A stretch of 64,000 nucleotides of DNA from Bacillus sp. EAC (GTDB lineage Bacteria > Bacillota > Bacilli > Bacillales > Bacillaceae_G): positions 1 through 64,000 of the forward strand of contig NZ_NCSY01000007.1 in NCBI RefSeq assembly GCF_002156875.1, given 5' to 3'. The notes under the pieces were generated by a model. It made no database searches. It was not told the origin of the DNA and saw only the letters and a list, made by a program, of their open reading frames with translations. Below, piece after piece: positions 188 to 64,000 of this stretch. The position numbers were made by a program, and so were the translations under genes. Numbering within the stretch: the first letter of the stretch is position 1; each line of letters opens with the position of its first letter.

Positions 188-270
188 TCTTATGCAACTA
201 ACTGGCGCGTTAGTTCAATAACGTGAGTTGCTACGGCAGCTCATTTTTATTGTGCTTATGTCAGTATTGT
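188..270 (+). repeat. Array repeat 1 (A+B+C)
   Basis: Part A is the palindrome at 196-215, with a TGGCG-type centre and left outer arm CTTATGC. Part B is the stem GAGTTGCTACGGCAGCTC followed by T5. Part C starts TGTGCTTATGTCAG. The names A (palindrome), B (stem-loop plus T-run) and C (tail) are used for all later copies. Confidence 0.9.
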
Positions 271-365
271 CGAAAAAGAAAAGGGAAACGGTTATAAAAA
301 TAGAAATTATTTTTATAACAAATTCATTAGATAAAATAATATTTTTACAAGTTAGGAGTGAAGTA

Positions 366-995
366 ATGTCTGAATATCGTGTTGTAGAATTAGAAAAGTG
401 GGAGAGAAAAGAATATTATAATTATTACTTTTCAATAAATGTTACTCATGAACTGACAACGAAAATAGATGTAACTAATGCCGTTGAATATTGCCAAAAT
501 AATAATTACAGCTTCTATGCCTATATGATTTTTAATATTACGAAATCTATTAACTCTATCAAAAATTACCGTTATGATCTTATTGAAAATGAATTAGTAT
601 GTTGGGATTATCTAGTTCCGGCATTTACTATTTTTGATAAAGAAAAAGAAAAATTTCAATGTATTTGGTTAGATAAATTTGAAAGTATGGCCGAATTTCA
701 ATCTGCTTTTAAAGAAGAAGTTGAAAAATACGTTGGTTCCGATAAAATGTTTCCTAAAGTTAATCAACCCTTAAACACCTTTGATATATCATCTATTCCT
801 TGGGTGAGTTTTGATAATTTTTCTTTAAATATCGCTAATTCTTCTTGTTATTTAAAGCCAATATTGACTATTGGAAAGTATTCTGAACAAAACGGGAGAT
901 TATCTATACCTATTTCTATTAAATCTCACCACGCTACAGTAGATGGATTCCATGTAGCAAAATTTTTTGAAAAGCTAACAAAGAATATTGATTAA
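366..995 (+). CDS. Chloramphenicol O-acetyltransferase (CAT family)
   Basis: A 209-residue cytoplasmic enzyme expected to transfer acetyl from acetyl-CoA to the 3-hydroxyl of chloramphenicol. The C-terminal HHATVDGFH is the CAT active-site signature HHxxxDG, with the catalytic histidine near residue 188. The length and the motif YSFYAYMIFNITKSIN fit the trimeric CAT family (about 215 residues). The ATG at 366 is chosen because GGAG lies at 355-358; the frame is open further upstream, but that part runs through repeat 1 and has no ribosome site. The gene stands alone in its unit. Family membership is clear; actual drug resistance is inferred, since some CAT-like proteins acetylate other substrates. 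Confidence 0.9.
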   Translation: MSEYRVVELEKWERKEYYNYYFSINVTHELTTKIDVTNAVEYCQNNNYSFYAYMIFNITKSINSIKNYRYDLIENELVCWDYLVPAFTIFDKEKEKFQCIWLDKFESMAEFQSAFKEEVEKYVGSDKMFPKVNQPLNTFDISSIPWVSFDNFSLNIANSSCYLKPILTIGKYSEQNGRLSIPISIKSHHATVDGFHVAKFFEKLTKNID

Positions 996-1073
996 GTATT
1001 GGTTATTGATTTAAATGTTGTTTTTTGTATTTTGATTTTCTAAACTTCGCATTAATTTTTAAATTTTAACATT

Positions 1074-1140
1074 CCTTATGCAACTAACTGGCGCTTTAGT
1101 AGAATAGTATGAGTAGCCAATGGCTACTCATTTTTAATTG
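1074..1140 (+). repeat. Array repeat 2 (A+B)
   Basis: A at 1082-1101 with a TGGCG-type centre. B is GAGTAGCCAATGGCTACTC followed by T5. The C tail is not recognisable. Confidence 0.85.
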
Positions 1141-1311
1141 ATTAAAAAGGATTATTCACCTTCAACATTTAATATCTATTTAGAAATACTAAGTTTTAAT
1201 AATGTAGTAGGAAATTTAAATAGAATAACTGTCTAAACACAGGATTATTTAATTGATCCATTTTTATTTTTTAAGGAGAAGAGTTAATAAAGAAGAGGGG
1301 ATTTTGTTGTC

Positions 1312-1572
1312 ATGAGGCTAGATTGGTTTATTACGTTTATTTTAATTAGTGCTTATACAAGCTTGCTCTCCGAGATTGTAGCAGATTTTTTCCATTATTC
1401 ACATATACTTATGTATGGACTATCCGGTATGGTAAGCGGTGGTTTAATTTTTTTAATCATAAAAAATATACCTAGAATATCCGGTAAGATTATAAATTTG
1501 AAAATAGCCATAGTAATACTAATGATCAACGGTGGATTATTTGGAGTTATTGGAAAATACTTCGAACTATAA
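1312..1572 (+). CDS. Small three-helix membrane protein, unknown function
   Basis: 86 residues with about three hydrophobic segments (residues 5-22, 29-50 and 63-80) separated by short basic loops. A GAGGGG site precedes the ATG. It is the only gene between repeats 2 and 3. I recognise no family. Confidence 0.65.
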   Translation: MRLDWFITFILISAYTSLLSEIVADFFHYSHILMYGLSGMVSGGLIFLIIKNIPRISGKIINLKIAIVILMINGGLFGVIGKYFEL

Positions 1573-1578
1573 AATATT

Positions 1579-1650
1579 CTTATGTAACTAACGAGCGTGT
1601 TAGTTAAATAAAAAAGCTGCTTAGATGCAGCTTTTTTATTGGTATTTAAA
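1579..1650 (+). repeat. Array repeat 3 (A+B)
   Basis: A at 1586-1605 with centre AGCG and left outer arm CTTATGT. B is a terminator-like stem GCTGC/GCAGC at 1616-1631 with T6. Confidence 0.9.
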
Positions 1651-2142: not shown

Positions 2143-2236
2143 CTTATTGAACTAACTGGCGCGTTAGTTGAAGAACACTTGCTGCTAATGCAGCTTTTTT
2201 TATGAAGTAAATGGCACGATGATTAATAAGGAAAGG
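2143..2236 (+). repeat. Array repeat 4 (A+B+C)
   Basis: A at 2150-2169 (TGGCG centre), left outer arm CTTATTG. B is GCTGCTAATGCAGC with T7. C is AAATGGCACGATGATTAATAAGGA. Confidence 0.92.
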
Positions 2237-2313
2237 ACATTTCCAATAATATATTGAATAGTTAATATATGACTAGTTAAAGTATAGTAATTATTCAAAG
2301 GAGAAAAAATTCA

Positions 2314-2562: not shown

Positions 2563-2606
2563 TGATTACACATGGAGAAACAGTAAATGTAAAGTATTAT
2601 GATACT

Positions 2607-2704
2607 AATTCAACTAACGAGAGCGTTAGTTGAACTACAAAAAGAGGATGATCATAATTGATCATCCTCTTTTTTGCTAAATGGCAGGTTTGTTGTAGAA
2701 GGAA
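2607..2704 (+). repeat. Array repeat 5 (A+B+C)
   Basis: A at 2612-2631 with centre AGAG. B is a different stem, GAGGATGATCA/TGATCATCCTC with T6. C is CTAAATGGCAGGTTTGTTG. Confidence 0.92.
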
Positions 2705-2805
2705 ATAGAATTTTTAAAATGACACAATCTTTTAAACTGGAATGTTATTCTACTACTTATAGTTAGATTTGTACAAATAAGAGGATGGAAAAAGAGGTGG
2801 CTGAT

Positions 2806-3360: not shown

Positions 3361-3446
3361 GTTATTAAACTAACGAGCGTCTTAGTTGAAAATCCTATGG
3401 AATGTTTTAACAGCCCTTTTATTGTGCTAACTGGTATTTTAACAAA
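3361..3446 (+). repeat. Array repeat 6 (A+C, weak B)
   Basis: A at 3368-3387 (centre AGCG, right arm mutated to TCTTAGTT). C is TGTGCTAACTGGTATTTTAAC. Confidence 0.8.
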
Positions 3447-3527
3447 ATACAAAAAAATATTCATAAAATTGGGGATTTTGGTGAAAATATAGTGGATTCA
3501 ATTAACCCACTAAAAGAAGGTATTGAA

Positions 3528-4684: not shown

Positions 4685-4750
4685 ATTGCCGATAAGCGTA
4701 TTTATGAAATCTAAATTCACATACGATTTCATGTGAAAATATGCTAGTTC

Positions 4751-4780
4751 TTGTTCAACTAACGAGCGCGTCAGTTGAAG
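4751..4780 (+). repeat. Array repeat 7 (A only)
   Basis: A at 4757-4776 (AGCG centre; right arm GTCAGTT). No clear B or C. Confidence 0.8.
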
Positions 4781-4860
4781 TAGAAAACGGAAGGTTTCTC
4801 ATTAATGAAGGATCTTATTTGTTCCAATTTTTATATATATTTAGTAAAGAACTTTTTTAT

Positions 4861-4998: not shown

Positions 4999-5088
4999 GC
5001 TATACCTCGCTTATTGTTAATGTTTTATAGTATCCCCAAAATCATATAAGTATTTCTAGATAAAAAGTCAATTATTGAATGAAATATT

Positions 5089-5183
5089 CTCAACTAACGA
5101 GAGAGTTAGTTGAAGATCAATGAGTCACTGTTGTGGCTCATTTTTTTATTTAAGTAACGGGCAGTTTAATTCAATAAGGATCA
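5089..5183 (+). repeat. Array repeat 8 (A+B+C)
   Basis: A at 5092-5111 (centre AGAG). B is GAGTCACTGTTGTGGCTC with T7. C is AACGGGCAGTTTAATTCAATAAGGA truncated to its core. It lies between divergent genes, so it terminates no + gene. Confidence 0.9.
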
Positions 5184-5276
5184 GTGGTGAAATAATTGTA
5201 AAAACTTACTAATTATTATTAATAAGAATATTGTTATTATTAAATCGAATACCATTAACATCTATGGAGGAACAAA

Positions 5277-5618: not shown

Positions 5619-5712
5619 CTTATTGAACTAATGAGCGCGTTAGTTGAATATCTTGAGTTGCTCCGGTGACTCTTTTTTTGTTTCACTAAAAGGCAGGATA
5701 GTTGAATTGAAT
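5619..5712 (+). repeat. Array repeat 9 (A+B+C)
   Basis: A at 5626-5645 (AATGAGCGCG centre), left outer arm CTTATTG. B is GAGTTGCTCCGGTGACTC with T7. C is CACTAAAAGGCAGGATAGTT. Confidence 0.92.
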
Positions 5713-5753
5713 ATGGTAAAATTATACATAAAATGTAGAGTGAGGTGTTTACT

Positions 5754-6102: not shown

Positions 6103-6192
6103 AGTTATGTAACTAACGAGCGCGTTAGTTGAACAGCGAGGGGCTATTTCGGTAGTCCTTTTTTAATTGTGCTTAATGGTATGGAATAAATT
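6103..6192 (+). repeat. Array repeat 10 (A+B+C)
   Basis: A at 6111-6130 (AGCG). B is GGGGCTATTTCGGTAGTCC with T6. C is TGTGCTTAATGGTATGGAATAA. Confidence 0.92.
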
Positions 6193-6491: not shown

Positions 6492-6585
6492 TTTATTCAT
6501 CTAATGCATGGGTTAGTGGAAGATCATGAGTCACAAAGTGGCTCATTTTTTATTGAAGTAAGTAGTTTAATTGAATTAGGATAAT
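6492..6585 (+). repeat. Array repeat 11 (A+B+C, diverged)
   Basis: The diverged A core CTAATGCATGGGTTAG is at 6501-6516. B is GAGTCACAAAGTGGCTC with T5. C contains AGTAGTTTAATTGAATTAGGA. Confidence 0.82.
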
Positions 6586-7337: not shown

Positions 7338-7370
7338 CTCATTACTATTAACTAAAAAATATCAAATCTA

Positions 7371-7460
7371 ATAGAATTAACGCATGTGTTAGTTGAAGTT
7401 CAAGAGCAGCCGAGACTGCTTTTTTATTTAAGTATTAGGCAAATTAGTTGAAGAAGGTAA
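7371..7460 (+). repeat. Array repeat 12 (A+B+C)
   Basis: A at 7375-7394 with a CATG centre and one left-arm mismatch. B is AGCAGCCGAGACTGCT with T5. C is AGTATTAGGCAAATTAGTT. Confidence 0.88.
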
Positions 7461-7514
7461 GGAATAATTAATGGAGATTTAATAACTTAACTTATATTGA
7501 AATTAGGTGATTAA

Positions 7515-7878: not shown

Positions 7879-7908
7879 CTTATTCAACTAACGCATGCTT
7901 TAGTTCAA
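7879..7908 (+). repeat. Array repeat 13 (A only)
   Basis: A at 7886-7905 with a CATG centre and left outer arm CTTATTC. It is followed within 70 bases by the next gene, without B or C. Confidence 0.85.
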
Positions 7909-7970
7909 CATCAATTAGAAAGCAATGAACTTTTAATATAAATTCAATATGGAATTGTGGAGGAGATATT

Positions 7971-8434: not shown

Positions 8435-8468
8435 CTTATGTAACTAACTGGCGCGTTAGTTCAATAAA
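8435..8468 (+). repeat. Array repeat 14 (A only)
   Basis: A at 8442-8461 (TGGCG centre), left outer arm CTTATGT, right arm GTTCAATAA. It lies between convergent genes. Confidence 0.88.
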
Positions 8469-9709: not shown

Positions 9710-9944
9710 TTCTATCATCCTCCTGTTCTAGTTGTTTTATTCTAGTTCAAAGAGTCAGAACTACGATACGATGCTTACATATTCATCATATTGGAAACGT
9801 ATTCAAAAAACTAGTTGTAAAAATTTCATGTGGACAAATTTGAGTTTGTTTGATGGAGTACTAGTACTAGGATAGGAGAACTTATAATGCTGGTAAGCAA
9901 ATGAAAAATGAATTGCTTTGGTATATGTAAAATAAAGTCTTTCT

Positions 9945-10049
9945 AATGAAACTAACGAGAGCTTAAGTTGAATAACGATGGACTGCCTCGGCAGTCCATT
10001 TTTATCGTGCTAACTGGCATTTTAGGTTTAGTTTAATAAGTATTGTATA
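9945..10049 (+). repeat. Array repeat 15 (A+B+C), between divergent genes
   Basis: A at 9950-9969 (AGAG centre, right arm CTTAAGTT). B is GGACTGCCTCGGCAGTCC with T5. C is CGTGCTAACTGGCATTTTAG. No + gene precedes it in this unit, so it is not acting as a gene terminator here. Confidence 0.9.
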
Positions 10050-10150: not shown

Positions 10151-10309
10151 ATGAACAGTTTTATACCATCATTTATTGCATTAGTTATTATTGGATTAGC
10201 TATTTTTAGTTTCATTACATTAATCAAAAACATTAGTAAAAAACGATTTACTAAAATTAAAGAGTTAGAACAAAGAATTAGTGATTTAGAAAAAAATAAA
10301 TTCAACTAA
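10151..10309 (+). CDS. Tiny TM/coiled-coil protein ending in the repeat
   Basis: 52 residues with one N-terminal membrane helix (FIALVIIGLAIFSFITLI) and a charged amphipathic tail (KIKELEQRISDLEKNK). GGAGGA lies just before the ATG. The stop TAA (10307-10309) is inside the left arm of repeat 16, so the repeat supplies the last codon and stop. It has the same architecture as the proteins at 47143 and 47342. Confidence 0.7.
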   Translation: MNSFIPSFIALVIIGLAIFSFITLIKNISKKRFTKIKELEQRISDLEKNKFN

Positions 10310-10395
10310 CGCAAGCGTTAGTTAAACAATAAGTAGGAGCTGAATGTTAAGCTCCTACTTTATTATTCTGAGAATTAGTCGAATAAAATTGTAAG
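10300..10395 (+). repeat. Array repeat 16 (A+B+C), overlaps a gene end
   Basis: A at 10304-10323 (centre CAAG, arms ACTAACG/CGTTAGT). B is GTAGGAGC/GCTCCTAC. The C tail is degraded (GAGAATTAGTCGAATAA). Confidence 0.9.
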
Positions 10396-11030: not shown

Positions 11031-11126
11031 CTTATTGAACTAACGAGCGCGTTAGTTGTACAACGATAGACTACTTATGTAGTCAATTTTTTAATGCACT
11101 AAATGGGAGAATAGTCTCCTAACAAT
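11031..11126 (+). repeat. Array repeat 17 (A+B+C)
   Basis: A at 11038-11057 (AGCG), left outer arm CTTATTG, right outer arm GTTGTACAAC. B is GACTACTTATGTAGTC with T6. C is GCACTAAATGGGAGAATAGT. Confidence 0.92.
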
Positions 11127-11165
11127 GAGAATTATGTTAGTATTTAACTAAATGGAGGTGCCAAA

Positions 11166-11534: not shown

Positions 11535-11574
11535 CTTCTATTTTAGTTTTAACAGAAAGTCAAAAATACCCAGT

Positions 11575-11600
11575 ATCCCACTAACGAGCGCGTTAGTTTA
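11575..11600 (+). repeat. Array repeat 18 (A only)
   Basis: Core CTAACGAGCGCGTTAG at 11581-11596; outer left arm lost (CCCA precedes it). Confidence 0.82.
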
Positions 11601-11707
11601 ATCTTGTAAAGGCATGTTAATCATTCCTTTTGAAGTTAACTTTGAACGATATTATTGAAAAGGGGAACCTGTTATAAAAAAAAGCATTAATTATTCAATT
11701 AGCAATA

Positions 11708-12229: not shown

Positions 12230-12266
12230 CATATGCAACTAACGAGCGCGTTAGTTGTACAAGACT
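12230..12266 (+). repeat. Array repeat 19 (A only)
   Basis: A at 12237-12256 (AGCG), left arm ATATGC, right arm GTTGTACAAG. Confidence 0.88.
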
Positions 12267-13253: not shown

Positions 13254-13330
13254 ACTTATGTAACTAACGAGAGCGTTTGTAACATAAGAAAAAAGGAACT
13301 TCGTTTCATACGAAGTTCCTTTTTTCTTTT
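13254..13330 (+). repeat. Array repeat 20 (A+B)
   Basis: A at 13262-13281 (AGAG centre; right arm CGTTTGTAA). B is the strong terminator stem AAGGAACTTCG/CGAAGTTCCTT (13292-13322) with T6. Confidence 0.88.
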
Positions 13331-18751: not shown

Positions 18752-18908
18752 ACCGATAGGCTAATCATTGGATTAACAATGACTTAAAAGAAGTGATTCT
18801 AATCATTCATAAAGCTAGGAATTAAAGATTTAAATCAATAAGAATCACGGATGGGGATAAATACTATGATAATATTTGTATAAAATATTGTTGTTTGTGA
18901 AGTATTCT

Positions 18909-18940
18909 ACTTCAACTAACGAGCGCGTTAGTTGCATAAA
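18909..18940 (+). repeat. Array repeat 21 (A only)
   Basis: A at 18914-18933 (AGCG), left arm TTC, right arm GTTGCATAA. Confidence 0.88.
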
Positions 18941-19031: not shown

Positions 19032-19211
19032 ATGTCACGACGATTATTAAGAAATATCATTCTATTTATTCTTATTGTGGGTCTGGGTGGTTGGATGTTC
19101 ACCCACGATTATAAGATCGGAATCTTTGCCCCACTAGTTTTTACATTAATAAAGTTAATTTGGGATTTTATTGAAGATAGAGTTAAAAAAGAAAAGAAAA
19201 TATACAACTAA
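19032..19211 (+). CDS. Small membrane protein ending in the repeat
   Basis: 59 residues with two hydrophobic stretches (LFILIVGLGGWMF and IFAPLVFTLIKLIWDFI) and a basic tail. Its stop TAA (19209-19211) is inside the left arm of repeat 22. The ribosome site is weak (AAAGG about 15 bases upstream), so expression is uncertain. Confidence 0.5.
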   Translation: MSRRLLRNIILFILIVGLGGWMFTHDYKIGIFAPLVFTLIKLIWDFIEDRVKKEKKIYN

Positions 19212-19300
19212 GAGCGCGTGAGTTGAACAGCGAGAGCAGCCTATGGCTGTTCTTTTTTAATTCAAGTAATTGGCATGATGGTTGAATAGGGAAGGTGAAA
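19201..19300 (+). repeat. Array repeat 22 (A+B+C)
   Basis: Diverged A at 19206-19224 (AACTAAGAGCGCGTGAGTT). B is AGCAGCCTATGGCTGTTC with T6. C is AATTGGCATGATGGTTGAATAGG. Confidence 0.88.
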
Positions 19301-19399: not shown

Positions 19400-19672
19400 A
19401 TGACGAAGAAGAAAGATCAAGTTCTTTATTTTATATTAGGAGCATTTTTATTTGGAATTATGCTTTATATGTTCCATAGTTTTATCTGGTCATTCTTCTT
19501 TTTATTATTTATAAGTTATTTAATAACCTTAAAGCTTGCAGATGACAGTAGAAGTTTTAGAAGACAAATGTTAAGTGCTTCAATAGGGATTTTCTTCTTT
19601 GGATTAATTTCTGTGTTGATAATATTAATTGCAAAAGGTTTTATTATGTATGTAATTGACTTATATAACTAA
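19400..19672 (+). CDS. Small three-helix membrane protein ending in the repeat
   Basis: 90 residues, hydrophobic throughout, with a conserved-looking basic middle (DDSRSFRRQM). GGGTGG is 7 bases before the ATG at 19400. The stop TAA (19670-19672) lies inside the left arm of repeat 23. Unknown family. Confidence 0.65.
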   Translation: MTKKKDQVLYFILGAFLFGIMLYMFHSFIWSFFFLLFISYLITLKLADDSRSFRRQMLSASIGIFFFGLISVLIILIAKGFIMYVIDLYN

Positions 19673-19760
19673 CTGGCGCATTAGTTGAAGATCAAGAACT
19701 GTTATTACAGTTCTTTTTTTATTGAAGTAAATGGCAGTTTTGTTCAATATGATATGGTAA
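19660..19760 (+). repeat. Array repeat 23 (A+B+C)
   Basis: A at 19667-19686 (TGGCG centre). B is AAGAACTG/CAGTTCTT with T7. C is AAATGGCAGTTTTGTTCAATA. Confidence 0.92.
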
Positions 19761-20193: not shown

Positions 20194-20275
20194 CTTAAGT
20201 AACTAACGCATGCGCTAGTTGAAGTTCATCAAAGCTGCTTTTGCAATTTTTAAGTACGTTCAGGTAGTTTGGTAG
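20194..20275 (+). repeat. Array repeat 24 (A+C, weak B)
   Basis: A at 20201-20220 (CATG centre; right arm CGCTAGTT). B is eroded (AAAGCTGCTTTTGCAATTTTT). The tail is fragmentary. Confidence 0.82.
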
Positions 20276-20321
20276 GATACGGAATTTCGTAATTGATTCA
20301 ATTGATATAGGAAGTGAAAAA

Positions 20322-20795: not shown

Positions 20796-20895
20796 TTACA
20801 CTAACTAACGAGCGCGTTAGTTGAGCAACAAGAAGGGCTGCTTATGCGGTCTATTTTTTATTGCGCTAATTGGCATTTTATTGTAATAAGTTATT
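20796..20895 (+). repeat. Array repeat 25 (A+B+C)
   Basis: A at 20803-20822 (AGCG). B is GGGCTGCTTATGCGGTCT with T6. C is GCGCTAATTGGCATTTTATTG. Confidence 0.92.
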
Positions 20896-20972
20896 ACAAT
20901 AAATACCACTTTCCAGTATTTTCAAATATAGTTAAAATTATATGTAAATAACATCTAGTGAGGATATGAAAC

Positions 20973-22228: not shown

Positions 22229-22268
22229 TATTGCAAAATGAAGTGCTTTCTTGGTCTTGAAACTATCT

Positions 22269-22362
22269 TGTTGAACTAACGAGTGCTTTAGTTAATCATT
22301 AAAAGCAGCCATTGGCTGCTTTTTTATTATTATATTTGGCAGTTTAGTTGAAGAAGGAATTG
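22269..22362 (+). repeat. Array repeat 27 (A+B+C)
   Basis: A at 22274-22293 (AGTG centre). B is AGCAGCCATTGGCTGCT with T5. C is TATTTGGCAGTTTAGTTGAA. Confidence 0.92.
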
Positions 22363-24110: not shown

Positions 24111-24212
24111 CATATGTAACTAACGGATGCTTTAGTTGAAGTTTAAGAGTAGCCAATGGCTGCTTTTTTTATGAATAAATTAGTTGGATAGATGAACAAG
24201 GAATTAATATAT
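24111..24212 (+). repeat. Array repeat 28 (A+B, partial C)
   Basis: A at 24118-24137 (centre GATG), left outer arm CATATGT. B is AGTAGCCAATGGCTGCT with T6. The tail keeps TTAGTTGGATAG. Confidence 0.88.
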
Positions 24213-24258: not shown

Positions 24259-24510
24259 ATGAATGGTTCAATTGGGGTAAGTTACTCTACTAGTTTATAT
24301 GAAATTATTGGAACGCTATTAGCAGGAATAATTTTAGGAGTGATATTATTAATCTATGGCAATAAAAAGGGAGTAAGAAAGGTAGGGTTCTTAGGACTTG
24401 GTGCATGTGTAGCAAGCAGTTTTATCCTCGGACTGTATGTGCAAATTCCAGTTTTTATAATCTTTTTATTTTTAATTAAAGTCTCTTCTAGAAAACAAAT
24501 AATTACGTAA
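24259..24510 (+). CDS. Small membrane protein, unknown
   Basis: 83 residues with three hydrophobic segments (LYEIIGTLLAGIILGVILLIY, VGFLGLGACVASSFILGLYV and IPVFIIFLFLIKV). The ATG follows GAGGGAAAG. Its first residues (MNGSIGVSYSTSLYEIIG) resemble those of the 47342 protein (MENGTGIGWSSVLFEVVG). Confidence 0.62.
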   Translation: MNGSIGVSYSTSLYEIIGTLLAGIILGVILLIYGNKKGVRKVGFLGLGACVASSFILGLYVQIPVFIIFLFLIKVSSRKQIIT

Positions 24511-24530: not shown

Positions 24531-24570
24531 TCCTTATTGTACTAACGAGCGCGTTAGTTGAACAAGGAGA
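24531..24570 (+). repeat. Array repeat 29 (A only)
   Basis: Core ACTAACGAGCGCGTTAGT at 24541-24558, left outer arm CCTTATTG, right arm TGAACAAGGAGA leading straight into the next ribosome site. Confidence 0.88.
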
Positions 24571-26859: not shown

Positions 26860-26886
26860 ATGAAATATGATAAAAAATTAAAGACT

Positions 26887-40558: not shown

Positions 40559-40660
40559 CCTTATTCAACTAACGAGAGTGTTAGTTGAAAAGTTTGGACT
40601 ACTTCGGTAGTCCCTTTTTATTGTACTTATGGCAGTAGAGTTTTATTAGGAAAGGTAAAA
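40559..40660 (+). repeat. Array repeat 42 (A+B+C)
   Basis: A at 40567-40586 (AGAG), left outer arm TCCTTATTC. B is GGACTACTTCGGTAGTCC with T5. C is TGTACTTATGGCAGTAGAGT then TTTATTAGGA. The two outer ends are near-complementary. Confidence 0.93.
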
Positions 40661-41430: not shown

Positions 41431-41454
41431 TTTCTTCGTATTCAATAATATTTC

Positions 41455-41535
41455 ATGTACAACTAATACGAGCGTTAGTTGAATTGAGATTAACAGCAAA
41501 ACTCGGTTCTGAAGAACCGAGTTTTGTTTGTCACC
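41455..41535 (+). repeat. Array repeat 43 (A+B)
   Basis: A at 41461-41480 (AACTAATACGAGCGTTAGTT). B is AAAACTCGGTTC/GAACCGAGTTTT, able to terminate in both directions between convergent genes. Confidence 0.88.
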
Positions 41536-43815: not shown

Positions 43816-43915
43816 CATCTTGTCTAACTAACGCATACGTTAGTTGAAGTAAAAGAGCAGCCATTGGCTGCTTTTTTACTTATGTATTTGGCAGATTAGT
43901 TGAGCAAGGAATTCA
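43816..43915 (+). repeat. Array repeat 44 (A+B+C)
   Basis: A at 43826-43845 (centre CATA). B is AGCAGCCATTGGCTGCT with T5. C is TATTTGGCAGATTAGTTGAG then CAAGGA. Confidence 0.93.
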
Positions 43916-44259: not shown

Positions 44260-44361
44260 TCCTTATTGAAATAACGAGCGCTTGAGTTGAACAATTAGAT
44301 AGCTGCTTCGGTAGCCATTTTTTTGTACCAACTGGCAGTTTAGTTTTCAATATGGGAAAAG
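44260..44361 (+). repeat. Array repeat 45 (A+B+C)
   Basis: A at 44269-44288 with mutated arms (AAATAACGAGCGCTTGAGTT), left outer arm CCTTATTG. B is AGCTGCTTCGGTAGCC with T6. C is CCAACTGGCAGTTTAGTTTT then CAATATGG. Confidence 0.9.
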
Positions 44362-45003: not shown

Positions 45004-45021
45004 CCTATAATTTAAATTTAC

Positions 45022-45115
45022 TTGTACAACAAACGCATGCGTTTGTTGTACAACATGAGTTGCTTCGGCAGCTTTTTTTTGTTCAAATAAAAGGTAGATT
45101 AATGGAATAAGAAAA
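45022..45115 (+). repeat. Array repeat 46 (A+B+C), 32-bp perfect palindrome
   Basis: Left half TTGTACAACAAACGCA and right half TGCGTTTGTTGTACAA are exact complements (45022-45053). The usual ACTAAC/GTTAGT has become ACAAAC/GTTTGT on both sides, a compensatory pair. B is GAGTTGCTTCGGCAGC with T8. C is AAAAGGTAGATTAATGGAAT. Confidence 0.95.
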
Positions 45116-45178
45116 TATAAAATAATTGGATATTTATGGTAAAGTATAATTAGAAACTAATTTACTTTGTGGGAGATT

Positions 45179-45286: not shown

Positions 45287-45320
45287 CTTATACAACTAAC
45301 GCATGTGTTAGTTTAGCAAA
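45287..45320 (+). repeat. Array repeat 47 (A only)
   Basis: A at 45294-45313 (CATG centre), left outer arm CTTATAC. Confidence 0.87.
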
Positions 45321-46034: not shown

Positions 46035-46135
46035 CTTATACAACTAACGAGCGCATTAGTTCAACAACAAATAGAGGATGATCGTATTCAATCATCCTCT
46101 ATTTTGCTATATGGCAGGATTAGTTCAAGCAAATT
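46035..46135 (+). repeat. Array repeat 48 (A+B+C)
   Basis: A at 46042-46061 (AGCG), left outer arm CTTATAC. B is TAGAGGATGAT/ATCATCCTCTA. C is GCTATATGGCAGGATTAGTT. Confidence 0.93.
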
Positions 46136-46164
46136 GTATAATCATAAAAAGGGGTGATTTTGAT

Positions 46165-46599
46165 TTGGGAAACTTTCCAAATGTTCGAGAAATATTACTC
46201 GATGATGTAGTAGATGAAAAAGAGTTTATTAGCATTTTCAATAGCATTTACAAACATGATTGTTTTATTTATACGATAATTCCTGAATCCGAACATGAAC
46301 TTTTAGAAAAACTATCAAGTAACTTTATTGAATTTAATAAATTATCACTACCTGGAGTTTTTCCTAGAGAAAAAGGGCATTTAGGATATGTAAAAGATAG
46401 TCAAAAGAAATTTATTTTCCAATTTTATCTACGCTCTATTTCAATAGATTATCTTGTTTTTTCAGAGACTGATACATCAGAACTTTTAAGTAAAATAAAC
46501 AATAAGAACGATGACATCTTCAAAATATTTGAAGTTAATAAAATTCCTCATGTAACTATAGGTCCTGATAGTCAATGGCTCAATGTTGTTGAGTATTAA
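46165..46599 (+). CDS. Unknown soluble protein
   Basis: 144 residues from TTG at 46165, 8 bases after AAGGGGTG. Longer in-frame readings run back through repeat 48 and are not credible. Acidic and mixed alpha/beta in character (NVREILLDDVVDEKEFISIF; IPHVTIGPDSQWLNVVEY). No family recognised. Confidence 0.62.
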   Translation: MGNFPNVREILLDDVVDEKEFISIFNSIYKHDCFIYTIIPESEHELLEKLSSNFIEFNKLSLPGVFPREKGHLGYVKDSQKKFIFQFYLRSISIDYLVFSETDTSELLSKINNKNDDIFKIFEVNKIPHVTIGPDSQWLNVVEY

Positions 46600-46607: not shown

Positions 46608-46645
46608 CTTATTGAACTAACGAGCGCATTAGTTGAACAAGGAAT
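46608..46645 (+). repeat. Array repeat 49 (A only)
   Basis: A at 46615-46634 (AGCG, right arm CATTAGTT), left outer arm CTTATTG, right GAACAAGGA. Confidence 0.9.
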
Positions 46646-46941: not shown

Positions 46942-46965
46942 TCTTTTAGGTTAATAATTAAAAAT

Positions 46966-47055
46966 CTTATGCAATGAGAGTGTTAGTTGTATATTACAAA
47001 AGGCTGTTTTTCAGCCTTTTTATTATGCTAACGGGCTGGATTGTTAAGGATTTCA
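46966..47055 (+). repeat. Array repeat 50 (A eroded, B, C)
   Basis: Left arm reduced to CTTATGCAATGAGAG, right arm TGTTAGTTG. B is AAAAGGCTGTTTTTCAGCC with T5. C is ATGCTAACGGGCTGGATTGT then TAAGGA. Confidence 0.83.
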
Positions 47056-47142
47056 GTTTTAAATAGGATTATATTATGTTCATGTCGAATAATTTAAAAT
47101 AGGTAATATTTGGAATTTATTTTAAACGGAGGATTATATTCC

Positions 47143-47555: not shown

Positions 47556-47625
47556 GCTTATGTAACAAACGAGCGCGTTAGTTATATAAATTGAGGAATA
47601 TTTATGACTCTTTTTTATTAGAGCA
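47556..47625 (+). repeat. Array repeat 51 (A plus weak B)
   Basis: A at 47564-47583 (left arm AACAAACG), left outer arm CTTATGT, right outer arm GTTATATAA. A GAGGAATATTTATGACTC-like B with T6. Confidence 0.86.
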
Positions 47626-48675: not shown

Positions 48676-48712
48676 TTTATTGAACTATCGAGCGCGTAAG
48701 TTGAAGAATTGT
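48676..48712 (+). repeat. Array repeat 52 (A only), between divergent genes
   Basis: A at 48683-48702 (AACTATCGAGCGCGTAAGTT), left outer arm TTTATTG. Confidence 0.85.
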
Positions 48713-49289: not shown

Positions 49290-49325
49290 CTTATTCAACT
49301 AACGAGCGCTTTAGTTGAATAATAG
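49290..49325 (+). repeat. Array repeat 53 (A only)
   Basis: A at 49297-49316 (AGCG; right arm CTTTAGTT), left outer arm CTTATTC. Confidence 0.9.
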
Positions 49326-50197: not shown

Positions 50198-50289
50198 CTT
50201 ATTGAACTAACGAGCGCGTTAGTTGAACAAAAAGTGCTGCCATAATTTTTTAATACACTATTGGCAGGATAATTCATTAAGCATTGTGT
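50198..50289 (+). repeat. Array repeat 54 (A+C, eroded B)
   Basis: A at 50205-50224 (AGCG), left outer arm CTTATTG. B eroded to GTGCTGCCATAATTTTTTAA. C is ACACTATTGGCAGGATAATT then CATTAAGCA. Confidence 0.9.
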
Positions 50290-51439: not shown

Positions 51440-51535
51440 ATTCGAACTTTAGCGGTAGCGCGTTAGTTGAACAACGAAAGGCTGCTACGGCAGTTTATTT
51501 TTTATTGTGCCAACTGGCAGATTAGTTTATAAGGA
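51440..51535 (+). repeat. Array repeat 55 (A eroded, B, C)
   Basis: Left arm decayed (GAACTTTAGCGG), right arm GCGCGTTAGTTGAACAACG intact. B is GGCTGCTACGGCAGTT with T6. C is GTGCCAACTGGCAGATTAGT then TTATAAGGA. Confidence 0.86.
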
Positions 51536-51645
51536 ATTGCGCTAATTTATATCTTTGTGATTTAAATTATAGTTGAACTTCAACTTCAATTTAAAATTGA
51601 ATAAAATTTAAAGATATTTTATTTTTTTAGAAAAGGTGGTACCCC

Positions 51646-52566: not shown

Positions 52567-52655
52567 CTTATACAACTAACGCATGCTTTAGTTCAATAAG
52601 ATCCCAAGTCGCTAATGCGGCTTTTTTTCAACTATTTGGCAGGATACTTTAAATA
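52567..52655 (+). repeat. Array repeat 56 (A+B+C)
   Basis: A at 52574-52593 (CATG centre; right arm CTTTAGTT), left outer arm CTTATAC, right TTCAATAAG. B is AAGTCGCTAATGCGGCTT with T6. C is ACTATTTGGCAGGATACTTT then AAATAAG. It sits between divergent genes. Confidence 0.92.
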
Positions 52656-52694
52656 AGTAGTATAAAGTGAGTGGGTATTTTTGGTAAAATAATG

Positions 52695-52756: not shown

Positions 52757-52759
52757 AGA

Positions 52760-52790
52760 GCTAACTGGCAGGATAGTTCAATAAGCATAG
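52760..52790 (+). repeat. Array repeat tail C alone (57)
   Basis: CTAACTGGCAGGATAGTT followed by CAATAAG, with no A or B in front. It is a detached right end, or the right end of a copy whose interior was replaced by the promoter segment. Confidence 0.82.
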
Positions 52791-52964
52791 TGTGTTTGGA
52801 CTGTGCAGTATAATGAGAAAGCATTATTAAACGAGTGGGAGAAATCATTTTGAAAAAAACAAAACAATGGAGTAAAGAAAATAATGATTATATAGGATTT
52901 GTTCATCGATGTTAGTAAAATAATATAATAATGGATAAATATATGATTAATAAAAGGAGACATT

Positions 52965-53885: not shown

Positions 53886-54047
53886 AGAAAGAATAAACAA
53901 GCAACCTATGAAACTATGATAATCGCTAAAAGGCTGTTGAGAAAGTCTCGTGAGCCCTCCTATAATTACTAAATTTACTATCGGCTCTTCAATTAGAAGT
54001 GGAACTACTTTCTCCATTTGTAAATCGTTCATCATTGTGAAGTAATT

Positions 54048-54078
54048 CACTTTAACTAACGAGAGCGTTTGTTTAAAA
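54048..54078 (+). repeat. Array repeat 58 (A only)
   Basis: A at 54054-54073 (AGAG; right arm CGTTTGTT). Confidence 0.85.
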
Positions 54079-54103
54079 GAAATAAAAAAATGGAGGTAGT
54101 ATT

Positions 54104-54311: not shown

Positions 54312-54405
54312 TCCTTAAGCAACTAACGAGAGCGTTAGTTTGAACAAAGATAGACTGCTTCAGCGGTCTTTTTATTTGCAGTAAATGGTAGAATCGTTGA
54401 GTAAG
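54312..54405 (+). repeat. Array repeat 59 (A+B+C)
   Basis: A at 54321-54340 (AGAG), left outer arm CCTTAAGC. B is GACTGCTTCAGCGGTC with T5. C is GTAAATGGTAGAATCGTTGA. Confidence 0.9.
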
Positions 54406-54483
54406 TATATTAATAAAAATTCCAGTATTTAACATTTATATTACTTGTTACATGTTATTATAGATAAAAAAGGGGTGGATGTT

Positions 54484-54798: not shown

Positions 54799-54802
54799 AG
54801 TT

Positions 54803-54896
54803 TAATGCAACTAACGAGAGCGTTAGTATAAGTATGTAAGCTGCTTAATGCAGCTTTTTTTATTGAAGTAAACGGTATATTAATTCAAGGAAAAAG
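54803..54896 (+). repeat. Array repeat 60 (A+B+C)
   Basis: A at 54809-54828 (AGAG). B is AAGCTGCTTAATGCAGCTTT. C is GTAAACGGTATATTAATTCA then AGGA. Confidence 0.9.
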
Positions 54897-54946
54897 ATAC
54901 TATGTTATAATCTTGAAGATAAATTTAGTTGAATGAGGTTAACATA

Positions 54947-55339
54947 ATGAAAAAAATATTAATTTTGATATTATTAGGGATTATTGGAATAGGATGTTTT
55001 TTCCTATTTTCAGGTAACGAAGGGTTTAACATTAAGATTAAAAATCAAACGAACAAAAAACTCTCAGGCCTAATTCTTACTACCCCAAAAGGAGATATTA
55101 AAATACCTACACTATTAGAAGGTGAAGTATATAAAATAAATGTAATGCCAAATGGTAAGCGTTCTATAACACTACAATATAAAGATGAAAATGGTAAAAC
55201 AGAATCAATTGGAGTTATAGGCCAATTAAATAAGGAGTATCATGGAAAGGCTGAAGTAATTTTTGATTCTATCGATGAGAGTGGCTCGATAGATGTAAAT
55301 AGTTCATACGAGATTAGTAATTATAAATTATTCAACTAA
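54947..55339 (+). CDS. Membrane-anchored or secreted protein ending in the repeat
   Basis: 130 residues: hydrophobic N-terminus (ILILILLGIIGIGCFFLFSG, containing a Cys that could be a weak lipobox) and a beta-rich exterior domain (NIKIKNQTNKKLSGLILT). A TATAAT hexamer at 54906-54911 is a likely -10 box. GAGG precedes the ATG at 54947. The stop TAA (55337-55339) is inside the left arm of repeat 61. Confidence 0.67.
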   Translation: MKKILILILLGIIGIGCFFLFSGNEGFNIKIKNQTNKKLSGLILTTPKGDIKIPTLLEGEVYKINVMPNGKRSITLQYKDENGKTESIGVIGQLNKEYHGKAEVIFDSIDESGSIDVNSSYEISNYKLFN

Positions 55340-55390
55340 CGAGCGCATAAGTTTAACAAAAATAGCAGCCATAGGCTGCTATTTTATTTA
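55330..55390 (+). repeat. Array repeat 61 (A+B, overlaps gene end)
   Basis: A at 55334-55353 (AGCG; right arm CATAAGTT). B is ATAGCAGCC/GGCTGCTAT. Confidence 0.9.
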
Positions 55391-57372: not shown

Positions 57373-57899
57373 TAAATCTCCCCCTAATTGAGTTCAGATG
57401 AGTTTGAAAGAAAAAGATTAAATCCTAATCAATTTTAAAATAAAACCAATAATGTTCCTTTGACTATTTCTTGACTAAAAAAAATGACAGCCACTCTGTA
57501 AGTGGCTGTCATAGAATAGTTCGGCAAGGAAGCTTTAACGTTCCTTCTGCCTAAATATAAAAAGCCCTGAGAGTGAAACCTACCCTCAGAGCCAAATGTA
57601 TTCGTAAAAAAATATCTAAATAACAATATGAGGATAAGACATATATTTTTGTGTTTTCATTGTTATCCTCACCTCATTACGATTTATTTTTAAAGTAACA
57701 TTATCCTAACATTAATTTAATTATTTGACAACAGGTGAATCGTATGTTGTTTATTTAGCAAAAATATTGGATTTTTAGAGATTTGAAATTGTACTGTTCA
57801 TTCTCAGTTTTTTTTATATATCGCACCACGAAGAATTACTTAGAAATGGTAGTTTACACTAGTTTTGGAGGTGATTTGGAAAAGAATATAATTACTTTT
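57373..57899. other. Gene-free region with stem-loops
   Basis: Contains ATGACAGCCACT/AGTGGCTGTCAT (57484-57512), a strong stem that could terminate in either direction, and a looser GAGGATAA/TTATCCTC pair around 57629-57671. No credible gene. Confidence 0.5.
57484..57512. terminator. Strong stem-loop, terminator-like
   Basis: ATGACAGCCACT and AGTGGCTGTCAT pair perfectly around a five-base loop; A-rich before on the + strand, so a T-run follows on the minus strand. Confidence 0.6.
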
Positions 57900-57926
57900 T
57901 ATTAAGCTAACGAGTGCAATAGTTTA
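57900..57926 (+). repeat. Array repeat 62 (A only, eroded), between divergent genes
   Basis: GCTAACGAGTGCAATAGTTT at 57906-57925 with right flank AACAACACGA. Confidence 0.8.
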
Positions 57927-57949
57927 ACAACACGAATTGAGGTGAAGAG

Positions 57950-58511: not shown

Positions 58512-58586
58512 GTTATACAACTAACGAGCGCGTTAGTTGTATAACATGAGGTACCTATCCTATTCATATGGATAAGTACCAATTTC
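58512..58586 (+). repeat. Array repeat 63 (A+B), perfectly symmetrical A
   Basis: Arms GTTATACAACTAACG / CGTTAGTTGTATAAC (58512-58545), 15 bp perfect, centre AGCG. B is GGTACCTATCC/GGATAAGTACC without T-run. Confidence 0.95.
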
Positions 58587-59550: not shown

Positions 59551-59748
59551 ATAAATTACATTGCTGATTCATTAGGAATGTAGAAATCAGAAATAGAAAG
59601 ATATCAAATACATCCTGATATCCATAATCCTATTATTTATAAGGCAAATAAAAATAAGGGAAACTTTGATACTCTTGATCTATTGTTGAACAAAATATTA
59701 GTACATACAGCTTTAAAAGATGATGCCCCTTTTTTACTATGCAACTAA
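59551..59748 (+). pseudogene. Short protein gene with ATA start and one in-frame TAG
   Basis: GGGGGAAG is followed after 4 bases by ATA (59551), reading (M)NYIADSLGM, then TAG at 59581, then KSEIERYQIHPDIHNPIIYK ... LKDDAPFLLCN. The stop TAA (59746-59748) is in the left arm of repeat 64. Whether it ever functioned with this start is unclear. Confidence 0.5.
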
Positions 59749-59775
59749 CGCATGCGTTAGTTGCATATGTAACGC
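59736..59775 (+). repeat. Array repeat 64 (A only), 30-bp perfect palindrome
   Basis: Half TATGCAACTAACGCA and half TGCGTTAGTTGCATA are exact complements (59738-59767). No B or C. Confidence 0.92.
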
Positions 59776-59826: not shown

Positions 59827-60192
59827 TTGAATAGTAAAAATTTAATTATTGCCTCAGTAATTTTATCTTTAGGAATAATTATCGGCTGTTTACTCCTATC
59901 TCTTAAGTTTAGCTCAAGTATTAAAGTACCAAATAATAAAATAGTTGTAGAAAATAAAGTATTGATGGATATTAATGAGGCATCAAAATTTCTCGGACTA
60001 TCTGTTGTTGAGATAAAAGAAATTATTAATGCTGAACAAGAATCCATCGACAAGTATGGTGGTTTTAATGGAATAAGTTTACCCTATATAGTCATAAATA
60101 GAAGTTACTTTTTTGAAAGAGCTTCACTTATGATTTGGGTAAAAGATAGTTTCGATAATCATAGAAATTATAATGATGGAAAAATGAATTAA
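59827..60192 (+). CDS. Membrane-anchored protein with excisionase-like HTH segment
   Basis: 121 residues from TTG, 7 bases after AAAGGGAG. One N-terminal helix (LIIASVILSLGIIIGCLLL), then VLMDINEASKFLGLSVVEIK EIINAE, which resembles the excisionase/MerR-type helix-turn-helix 'EASKFLGLS', followed by ISLPYIVINRSYFFERASLM. Small membrane proteins carrying this DNA-binding-like segment exist in Bacillus, role unknown. Confidence 0.65.
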   Translation: MNSKNLIIASVILSLGIIIGCLLLSLKFSSSIKVPNNKIVVENKVLMDINEASKFLGLSVVEIKEIINAEQESIDKYGGFNGISLPYIVINRSYFFERASLMIWVKDSFDNHRNYNDGKMN

Positions 60193-60202
60193 TTAATGGG
60201 AA

Positions 60203-60296
60203 TAATTTAACAAACGCATGCGTTAGTTAAATTTCACGAGCTGCCACGACGGTTCTTTTTGTTGGACTAACAGGTAAATTAGTTGAACAAGAAAGG
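60203..60296 (+). repeat. Array repeat 65 (A+B+C)
   Basis: A at 60209-60228 (CATG centre; left arm AACAAACG). B is GAGCTGCCACGACGGTTC with T5. C is GGACTAACAGGTAAATTAGT then TGAACAAG. Confidence 0.92.
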
Positions 60297-60310
60297 GATA
60301 TAATTGGTTA

Positions 60311-60919: not shown

Positions 60920-60979
60920 GAACATTAAATAGTTATAGATTAAGCAATCTCAAATGTCATTAAGAACTGGATGAGCGTA

Positions 60980-61070
60980 TAATACGAACGTATGCGTTAG
61001 TTCAACAACAATCGCTGCTTCGGCAGTCTTTTTTTAATTGCAATAACTGGCAGGCTAGTTGAATAAGTTC
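60980..61070 (+). repeat. Array repeat 66 (A+B+C)
   Basis: Shortened A GAACGTATGCGTTAGTTC at 60986-61003. B is ATCGCTGCTTCGGCAGTC with T7. C is CAATAACTGGCAGGCTAGTT then GAATAAG. Confidence 0.88.
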
Positions 61071-61236
61071 AGGTGTGCATTTTAATAAGGACGATTAACA
61101 AATTAAAAGTAGTTTTATACGAGTAGGCTATTCCCCCAAGTTACAATTAATAATTATTAAAGTAGAATTAAATAGAAAATTAAATCAATTCTAAAAATAA
61201 TTCGAATAAATCTAAATAATATAGGGGGAGTTTGAA

Positions 61237-62155: not shown

Positions 62156-62169
62156 CTATTCATCAAAAC

Positions 62170-62210
62170 CTTAATAAACTAACGAGCGCGTTAGTTGAAC
62201 AACGAAAAAA
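62170..62210 (+). repeat. Array repeat 67 (A only)
   Basis: A at 62177-62196 (AGCG), right flank GAACAACGAAAAA. The B stem is absent. Confidence 0.9.
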
Positions 62211-62360
62211 ATAATATTCTTTAACTAATTCTTTTTTAGAGGTTGATTAAGTCCAGATAACTTAGAATTATATAATAGCTTACAAAAATAACCATGAATA
62301 CAAATAAGGAACCATTGTTTTATAAGTATTATTGTACCTATATTGGAAATATTAATCATT

Positions 62361-63830
62361 ATGATGAATCGAGATATAGATAATTTAACGATTAGCTTAC
62401 ATAACAATATAAAGATAATAAGTGAGAAATTAAATAATCCTTCTGATTTAATTATTCGGCATATAAAAATAGGAGGTAATGACAAGCACGATGCCGCACT
62501 TGTTTTTCTACATGGAATTACGAATACAGAATTCATTCAAAATTGTATTATCAAGCCTCTTTTAGAAATAACTGAAACTGTAAATGAGGATTTTATAGAA
62601 GACTTAGCTTACCATACTATCCAATCGAGTATCGTTGAAATAATTCTCTCATTTGATACATGCATCCAAGGATTATTAAAAGGAAAAACTCTACTATTAC
62701 TCAATGGGCATAACAGTGCTATTCTGGCGGATACCAAGGATTGGAAGCATCGAGCTGTTGAACAAACAAATGCAAATCGATCTGTATTTGGCCCAAACCA
62801 AGGTTTCAATGAACAGCTAGAAGTGAATATAAATTTATTAAGAAAAATTGTACAATCCTCTGATCTATGTATTGAAGAAATAAAAATAGGAACTTATACT
62901 AAAACCTCAATTGTTATTATTTACTTAAAAGGAAGAGTGGATCAAAAGGTTTTAGTAGAGACAAGAAATCGTATTACTTCTATAGAAGTAGATTACATTA
63001 TAGAGTCAAGAGTAGTTGAAGATGTAATTGAAGGAAAAAAAACGATTTTTCCCTTACTAACCAATACGGAAAGACCCGACCTCGTTGCCTCGAGTTTATA
63101 TGAAGGTCGAGTAGCGATTATGACAGAGGGGACCCCACAATCAATTATTGTACCCACGTTATTTATTCAATGTTTTCAATCAGCTGACGAATATTATATG
63201 AAACTTGGAAGATTTACCAATCGCCTAAGTACATTTATTGCGTTTATTTTAACAATCTTATTACCTGGTTTTTATCTTGCAATCGAAGAATTTCACAAGG
63301 ATTGGGTTTCTCCCAAATTTTCAAAACAGCTATTTTCTAATTCAGATACACTTCCATCAGCAATAATGGAGGTCTTGTTATTATTACTAGTTTTGGAAAT
63401 GATAGTTATTGCATCTGTCCGTGTACCTAAAGATATAGTTATTACATTATCTCTCGTTGGGGCTGTCGTTTTTGGAGAAGCTGCTACTCAAGCGAAATTA
63501 ATACATCCCATTAGTCTTGTAATTGTCGCAATCACATTTATTTCAAATTATGTGATTACCTCTAGAGGGCTTGCTAATCCAGTGTATACTTTGAGGACAA
63601 TATTTATTATATTAGGTTATTTCGTTGGAATTAGTAGTATGGTAATTGGACTTATATTATTGACAATATATATAGCTAGTTTAAAATCAGTGGGGGTTCC
63701 ATATTTAGCACCAATAATTCCTTTTCATCCAAAGGAATTCAAAGATACTTTTTATAGAGGAAATAGCAAAAAATTAATCAATAGTTTGCATGCTTATCCA
63801 CACGAAGATGAAAAAAACAATAAAAATTAA
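62361..63830 (+). CDS. GerA-family spore germination protein
   Basis: About 489 residues. The N-terminal cytoplasmic domain contains LNNPSDLIIRHIKIGG and NRSVFGPNQGFNEQLEVNI, positions matching the GerA hallmarks SSDLVIR and RGPREGFTE though the second is altered. Four or five C-terminal helices include the conserved TPSAIMEVLL-like LPSAIMEVLLLLLVLEMI. GerA-type subunits partner a GerB permease and GerC lipoprotein in the spore inner membrane; none is adjacent. No good ribosome site precedes the ATG at 62361/62364, so the start is uncertain. Confidence 0.88.
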   Translation: MMNRDIDNLTISLHNNIKIISEKLNNPSDLIIRHIKIGGNDKHDAALVFLHGITNTEFIQNCIIKPLLEITETVNEDFIEDLAYHTIQSSIVEIILSFDTCIQGLLKGKTLLLLNGHNSAILADTKDWKHRAVEQTNANRSVFGPNQGFNEQLEVNINLLRKIVQSSDLCIEEIKIGTYTKTSIVIIYLKGRVDQKVLVETRNRITSIEVDYIIESRVVEDVIEGKKTIFPLLTNTERPDLVASSLYEGRVAIMTEGTPQSIIVPTLFIQCFQSADEYYMKLGRFTNRLSTFIAFILTILLPGFYLAIEEFHKDWVSPKFSKQLFSNSDTLPSAIMEVLLLLLVLEMIVIASVRVPKDIVITLSLVGAVVFGEAATQAKLIHPISLVIVAITFISNYVITSRGLANPVYTLRTIFIILGYFVGISSMVIGLILLTIYIASLKSVGVPYLAPIIPFHPKEFKDTFYRGNSKKLINSLHAYPHEDEKNNKN

Positions 63831-63838
63831 ACGTGAGT

Positions 63839-63878
63839 AAAACATCCCTGTATCTAATTAAGATTACAGGGATGTTTT
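63839..63878. terminator. Terminator after the GerA gene
   Basis: AAAACATCCCTGTA pairs with TACAGGGATGTTTT. T-rich sequence follows. Confidence 0.88.
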
Positions 63879-63953
63879 ATTAGTCTTTGTTAAAATTTAT
63901 CTTTATTGATTTTCAATAAATGAAAAACCACAAAAATTATAATTTTTACTTAC

Positions 63954-64000
63954 TGTTATTCAACTAACGAGCGCGTTAGTTGAATATCATGAAGGTCTGT
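63954..64000 (+). repeat. Array repeat 68 (A, cut by window edge)
   Basis: A at 63962-63981 (AGCG), left arm TTATTC, right flank GAATATCATGAAGG running off the window. The array continues beyond it. Confidence 0.9.

Follow-up and report, generated by a model that had tools for sequence, protein, structure and literature searches.

What is the structured repeat that recurs throughout the first 64,000 nucleotides of contig NZ_NCSY01000007.1 of Bacillus sp. EAC (assembly GCF_002156875.1), and does it mark a system of mobile gene cassettes? This whole stretch, hereafter the window (G000:C26:1-64000, where G numbers denote genomes and C numbers contigs), comes from the 4.33-Mb genome of a soil bacterium of the genus Gottfriedia in 28 contigs, 99.7% complete. 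A preliminary description had proposed about 67 co-oriented copies of one composite repeat with mostly one gene per unit, resembling a chromosomal integron, and had suggested an undescribed Gram-positive cassette system or a convergent one. Our results indicate that the array very probably belongs to an integron-like gene-cassette system of independent origin, run by a Xer-like tyrosine recombinase, here called P0001, on two related cores of the repeat, A and C.

We scanned the window for palindrome A with a position weight matrix, kept places scoring above 12 bits and then parsed the matches into elements. The plus strand has 76 such places, A cores and related C tails together, and the minus strand has 60, as a palindrome predicts; the top score in five random sequences with the dinucleotide frequencies of the window was 6.1 bits. 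Parsing gave 66 elements with a median spacing of 658 bases, close to the number first proposed, and confirmed their composite order of A, then B (a stem-loop with a T-run), then C. The arms of A, AACTAA and TTAGTT, are almost invariant, near-identical inverted copies separated by an 8-bp spacer. The consensus of A is CTTATTCAACTAAC-TGGCGC-GTTAGTTGAATAA, GAGCGC being the most frequent spacer in the window contig C26, and that of the second core, C, is AACTAA-ATGGCAGT-TTAGTTGAATAAG. A C core was recognised after 30 of the 66 window elements, including the last one, whose C lies beyond the window end, and we read the cores at 19263, 47025, 51507 and 52758 as C-type, with their A degenerate or absent. 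Elements that lack C carry AAG at the C-right position in 74 of 333 cases, against 24 of 222 for elements with C and 120 of 222 for C itself; this excess is what A x C hybrids would give and is suggestive only. No Rfam family and no tRNA was found in the window, and RNAalifold retained only the inner pairs of A, almost without compensatory change, together with the B stem, after which a reading of the element as RNA was dropped.

The array fills the window, as the preliminary description had it, but is not limited to it. On C26 it is dense up to ~74 kb and patchy up to ~146 kb, with scattered copies up to ~220 kb, and seven other contigs carry arrays as well; the examined parts of the eight (C4, C7, C10, C12, C13, C14, C22, and C26) hold 259 elements. 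The limits could be mapped and the arrays fall in discrete regions: allowing up to 3 mismatches, the A core has 157 forward matches genome-wide, 150 of them on these parts. Single contigs carry more than 100 elements, and the examined parts of three scaffolds of Gottfriedia solisilvae NEAU-cbsb5 (G001), a member of the same genus, hold 208. The co-orientation claimed earlier also stands. A spacer that gives direction is present in 133 of the 242 A matches on the eight contigs, and all 133 agree within their contig (48 to 0 on C26); the count is confined to these spacer-decided copies, with 109 matches undecided, and a two-mismatch count in which sites were counted several times was not relied on. 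Units also tend to hold a single gene: exactly one open reading frame (ORF) of at least 60 amino acids is present in 369 of 520 units (120-6000 bases, 15 contigs). Of 490 units, 431 have their longest ORF on the array strand.

We then cut 15 contigs belonging to 6 genomes into 507 units of 100-4000 bases and compared these between species and within genomes. This gave 52 homologous pairs, of which the 34 with more than 80% identity and more than 60% coverage were used to locate breakpoints and the rest were dropped. A cassette of G. solisilvae occurs three times, 97.7-99.5% identical, in three contexts with different neighbors, and one cassette at 93% identity is common to G056, a genome of another family. 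Whole units, gene and half-sites together, are thus found in new contexts within and between genomes, which shows, to judge from these comparisons, that they are mobile. Conserved cassette order between genomes was looked for and not found, with a homologous neighbor in the same order in 0 of 34 pairs, and therefore no insertion into a conserved neighbor pair is demonstrable. The outcome that would have spoken against cassettes, repeats moving independently of genes and in random orientation, was not seen in the unit and orientation comparisons.

The breakpoints lie in A and occasionally in C. To the left of the upstream A no flank is common to any of the 34 pairs, while after it B is shared in 23 and the sequence past C in 27; at the downstream A, 19 pairs have the left arm in common at a level exceeding the 99% null, and none has the following B in common. 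Sharing starts past C rather than at A in 4 of the 34, and as we read its alignment, the 93% G056 pair likewise starts after C. Five pairs have no shared flank at all and two have only the downstream left arm. B and C thus travel with the start of the next unit rather than at the tail of the gene before them, hence the usual unit would read A-right, B, C, gene, A-left. In a per-position profile over A, for which the 23 and 17 of 28 pairs that were in register were used and the others dropped, the left side tracks the left unit and TTAGTT and beyond track the right unit, whereas the spacer positions show raised identity to both sides and track either one, the pattern to be expected if a staggered cut leaves heteroduplex in the spacer. 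The crossover would thus fall in the A spacer or at its right edge. Since shared sequence stops inside A on both sides, A behaves like a double-stranded tyrosine-recombinase core.

No integrase had been visible in the preliminary description, and this holds for the window: there is none on C26 among the six listed of seven genome matches to the IntI profile TIGR02249, and none among the 40 window ORFs scanned against Pfam. There is, however, one in the array on C22, P0001, to which two of the six listed matches belong as pieces. P0001 is a protein of 279 amino acids encoded at C22:14704-15543, on the strand opposite to (divergent from) the C22 cassettes. It matches PF00589 with 129.5 bits and has the catalytic set of the tyrosine recombinase superfamily (R-K-H-R-H-Y: R138, K162, H228, R231, H254, and Y263), and each of these residues is conserved in 51 or all of the 52 intact relatives. 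Against TIGR02249 it reaches 94.5 bits where the cut-off is 265, in two pieces (profile positions 12-169 and 235-301) with the middle missing. The best-scoring named family is the archaeal XerA (NF040815, 207.8 bits, cut-off 220), followed by the bacterial XerC (205.1, cut-off 335) and XerD (204.2, cut-off 330). Unlike these, P0001 falls below every Xer cut-off, is located in cassette arrays and belongs to a separate clade: in a 26-row tree, from which, as from the alignment, proteins with stop codons were left out, its family groups as a single clade (99/99) that excludes the three Bacillota IntI rows and the five Xer-type rows, the latter labelled from their rank in the profile search. P0001 fits the novel recombinase that had been thought possible. 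IntI above the TIGR02249 cut-off was present in 2 of 398 sampled Bacillota genomes.

Among the sampled Bacillales, 60 of 299 genomes and 34 of 116 genera have relatives of P0001 at E ≤ 1e-62; in two of the 60 genomes they are only 40-42% identical, in the others at least 57%. The closest are at 91-92% (two in G001) and 82% (G002 and G005). The recombinase gene lies inside arrays of several genomes, as on C22, and relatives stand among opposite-strand sites on G001:C17, G002:C2 and G005:C12, whereas that on G001:C13 has no array. G002:C2 is the 250-kb plasmid CP053689.1, deposited under the name Arthrobacter citreus. A C-type site is found upstream of part of these genes: 9 of 18 loci, among them 5 of the 7 in Gottfriedia, have one no more than 160 bp from the recombinase start, a count in which three of the nine sites are at the 5-mismatch limit and which had no shuffle control. 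C-type matches are enriched around 40 relatives outside Gottfriedia, where the opposite strand has 45 and the same strand 28, compared with a shuffle value of 1.5 for each strand, bearing in mind that palindromic cores can match both strands.

The core AACTAAN8TTAGTT is abundant throughout the genus, with 174 copies in G000, 198 in G001, 74 in G002, 73 in G009, 52 in G003, 41 in G006, 39 in G005, 33 in G011, 30 in G007, 25 in G012, 24 in G004, 18 in G008 and 9 in G010, while a reversed-core control in the same thirteen genomes gave 1-8. The two largest counts, G001 and G000, accompany intact recombinases, and in G010, which has the lowest count, no relative rises above background. The A spacer differs by genome (TGGCGC and GAGCGC in G000, TGGCGC in G001, TGATGC in G002, GCATGC/TAATGC in G005, GCATGC in G004, GGGTGC in G056) and the C spacer is constant (TGGCAG, or GGGCAG in G056). 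Chromosomal integrons have species-specific sites, and the genome-specific A spacers recall that.

Some observations around these recombinases deserve mention in their own right. The recombinase coordinates on CP053689.1 (locus L166, 250,451 bp, labelled Arthrobacter citreus NEB 577) are those of G002:C2 from Gottfriedia, and the label looks wrong. This plasmid and a Sporosarcina psychrophila plasmid (L164) carry group II intron maturase genes (ltrA) at a distance of no more than 15 kb from the recombinase. On the Peribacillus simplex plasmid pSHB26 (L165, 12873-15840) a second tyrosine recombinase gene precedes the P0001 relative by ~1.3 kb, and at G001:C14:355226-359306 at least three further tyrosine recombinase genes, ~32-33% identical to P0001, are clustered. 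In G046, from another family, the recombinase is followed by several same-strand single-gene units (L139, 9446-13100) with degenerate A-B-C elements and spacers like GGGGGC and GGGGCAG.

Taken together, these data allow a mechanism to be proposed. Each unit would be a mobile cassette, consisting of the right half of A, often the terminator-like stem-loop B and C, usually one gene, and the left half of the next A. P0001 would release the cassette as a circle by recombination, across the 8-bp spacer, between two A sites in direct repeat, and circles would be inserted at A or C sites, including the C-type site just upstream of the P0001 gene, which might act as attI. Given co-directional sites with an asymmetric spacer, cassettes would enter in one orientation. 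P0001 is predicted to act on double-stranded A and C cores. We infer the agency of the recombinase, the circular intermediate and the attI role from the arrangement of genes, sites and breakpoints.

The closest comparison is with chromosomal integrons such as the superintegron of Vibrio cholerae, integrons being described chiefly from Gram-negative bacteria. They share with the Gottfriedia system a tyrosine recombinase gene with an attI-like upstream site (here C-type, in some loci), long arrays that run one way and hold mostly single-gene cassettes, sites that differ by genome, and the occurrence of broken recombinase genes and of arrays without one. The co-oriented form recalls Treponema integrons (PMC3607928). 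Could this then be a true chromosomal integron, with an IntI-type integrase acting on single-stranded attC hairpins folded from A, B, and C (R'', L'', variable terminal structure, L' and R')? The composite does have the attC layout of two inverted core pairs flanking a variable stem-loop, its outer boxes ATTCAAC and GTTGAAT fit RYYYAAC/GTTRRRY, and the fold of R'' (ATTCAAC) with R' (GTTGAAT) was at first favored. It was dropped when covariation between R'' and R' did not exceed permutation in pooled sets of 222, 220, and 218 pairs (own tail, leading bases of the same unit, and next tail). Among subsets, the three bases after GTT match the R'' of their own unit in 21 of 85 cases in G001, against 14.4 ± 3.0 expected, an excess of the kind that attC predicts, and the next tail is raised in two subsets (observed mean reached by 24 and 36 of 2000 permutations), which attC does not predict; given the many tests, all were taken as probable noise.

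The breakpoints point the same way, lying in A in 23 of 34 pairs and in C in 4, while attC recombines only at L'-R' according to PMC2727003. The box at the A breakpoint, GTTAGTT, misses GTTRRRY by one base, the fitting GTTGAAT being the one in C, and the arms of the symmetric core are conserved in sequence, unlike attC, in which structure is conserved over sequence. B and C travel at the cassette start, again unlike integrons, and the hosts are Firmicutes, in which integrons are extremely rare: IntegronFinder 2.0 found one complete integron, in Limnochorda, and a few CALIN (clusters of attC sites lacking an integron-integrase) (PMC9024848). P0001 does not qualify as IntI either by TIGR02249 or by the IntI-specific insertion, and real Bacillota IntI form a separate clade. 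A true integron is thus highly unlikely and largely refuted already. The array does have the one-way, mobile and mostly single-gene cassettes of an integron and, in part of the loci, an attI-like site beside the integrase; because the two defining features open to test, on the enzyme and on the site, fail, we do not file it as one. Membership in the integron family is not supported, and the site behaves like a conserved double-stranded core.

An A site with two inverted arms and a short spacer also looks like dif, and since the window genome has other Xer-type recombinases, the host XerC/XerD pair rather than the array recombinase might move the units, as in the dif modules of Acinetobacter. 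Those modules likewise place genes between dif-like sites with a short spacer and rely on Xer-family chemistry with crossovers within the sites (PMC13141974), but their orientation alternates, and the host XerC/XerD pair works there on arms that are unlike each other and surround a 6-bp spacer. In Gottfriedia the sites are direct (133 of 133 within contigs), more than 100 elements can lie on one contig, and no distinct XerC and XerD arms can be told apart in A because the arms are near-identical inverted copies; with a dedicated recombinase family standing among the sites in several genomes, we consider this reading improbable. It is less probable still that homologous recombination or segmental duplication between short repeats shuffled the units passively, with no site-specific enzyme. 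Such events would also place breakpoints in the conserved repeat, but the homology on offer is only ~20-35 bp, no pair keeps its neighbor, a single unit is shared across families at 93%, and a recombinase sits in the arrays. Least credible of all is a dispersed repeat of the bcr type or a miniature inverted-repeat transposable element inserted between genes, which would make the cassette appearance fortuitous. The stem-loop, T-run, intergenic position and many copies recall bcr1 and other stem-loop families of Bacillaceae (PMC2267715), for which the part of the source cited describes no link to unit mobility or to a recombinase; Bant-1 (72 bp, same source in part) was set beside the element by description only. 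Random orientation and gene-independent insertion are not what we find, since asymmetric copies run one way, genes move together with half-sites, and nearly all core matches of the genome are on the eight array contigs.

Several results weigh against the cassette system that we favor. Excision, circle and insertion are deduced from sequence alone, and because A is conserved and the spacer positions track either parent, breakpoints cannot be placed to the base; 7 of the 34 pairs share neither B nor the sequence after C. Outside Gottfriedia, core counts are mostly at control level, with no sampled genome above 9, 14 of 40 recombinase loci have no C-type match within ~6 kb, and by a strict count only 3 of 40 have a C-type site 20-300 bp upstream. 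A de novo inverted-repeat search beside 16 loci ranked the AACTA core top only in the Gottfriedia loci and G056, and in G046, G098, G116, G083, and G186 most nearby sites lie 3' of the recombinase and share its strand. Within the genus many recombinase copies are broken, C22 has one cassette and an element beyond the recombinase, and G002 and G005 have sites on both sides of it, unlike a textbook integron. G007 has 30 sites and only a background-level recombinase match (1.1e-32), which an array that is without its enzyme would explain.

Within the window, all elements are on the plus strand, with coordinates from the A-matrix matches parsed into elements unless stated otherwise. Complete A+B+C elements lie at 189..284, 2143..2237, 2605..2707, 3361..3457 (with a weak C), 5085..5184, 5619..5716, 6492..6585, 7368..7462, 9943..10040, 11031..11129, 19660..19757, 20194..20287, 20796..20896, 22267..22362, 26379..26480, 30098..30198, 39084..39180, 40560..40655, 43819..43914, 44262..44358, 45021..45117, 50198..50287, 52567..52662, 54314..54411, 54802..54898 and 60976..61073. 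Elements that by the C-type core appear to combine a degenerate A with B and C are found at 19198..19296 (A at ~19204), 46962..47058 (~46968) and 51450..51540 (~51450), and a core read as C-type stands alone at 52758..52791. A is followed by B at 1075..1108 (with no clear C), 1579..1612, 6104..6137, 10297..10330, 13255..13288, 25316..25349, 26886..26919, 27569..27602, 28207..28240, 29406..29439, 31157..31190, 34315..34348, 41454..41487, 47557..47590 and 55327..55360 (coordinates of A). A was recorded by itself at 4750..4783, 7879..7912, 8435..8468, 11572..11605, 12230..12263, 18907..18940, 30677..30710, 45287..45320, 48676..48709, 49290..49323, 54047..54080, 57898..57931, 58512..58545, 62170..62203 and 63955..63988, the last being the element whose C is past the window end.

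Unit comparison identified three window units, also on the plus strand, with close counterparts elsewhere. One, 97.9% identical to a unit on C4, runs from an A+B+C element (24111..24206) through its cassette ORF (24259..24510) to an A at its right end (24533..24566). Another, 92.4% identical to a unit on C12, has an A+B+C element at its left end (46035..46137), an ORF without a Pfam match (46078..46599) and a right-end A (46608..46641). The third, 97.7% identical to a unit in G. solisilvae, begins with A (59736..59769), carries an ORF also lacking a Pfam match (59827..60192) and ends at an A+B+C element (60202..60297).

Of the 40 window ORFs scanned against Pfam, 24 match and 16 do not, and there is no transposase among them. 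The matched cargo includes a cassette gene of the chloramphenicol acetyltransferase family (366..995, plus strand; PF00302 on 363-995), GNATs, NUDIX, VanZ-like proteins, transporters, spore germination GerA and permease, and two large subtilases, among others. The spore germination genes (GerA type, spore permease) occupy separate cassettes at opposite window ends, 62343-63830 and 3492-4652, and the subtilase-type proteases, of 1178 and 1394 amino acids (14545-18081 and 34870-39054), are far above the usual cassette size. A cassette-borne promoter was considered: 54% of 222 units have TATAAT-like hexamers 28-45 bases past the start of C, compared with 39-41% for two control stretches; the excess is weak and was not used.

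A full-text literature search, with most subscription papers and all preprints outside its scope, returned no description of this system, in line with the earlier suggestion that it is undescribed or convergent. It is likely that integrons arose at least twice, and that Bacillales possess a cassette-capture platform of their own that combines a Xer-like recombinase with dif-like sites used as double strands. This platform would pass between many genera, in part by way of large plasmids, and supply their genomes with accessory genes by the hundred. Since the recombinase family is found in 60 of 299 genomes, the system may be common and simply unannotated, its enzyme appearing as 'tyrosine-type recombinase/integrase'. 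If it works as proposed, a Firmicutes counterpart of the integron would mean that cassette capture has more than one evolutionary origin, and the single-stranded attC reaction could be compared with a double-stranded one. It would also account for the extensive genome-specific gene blocks of Gottfriedia and open hundreds of uncharacterized single-gene cassettes to study.

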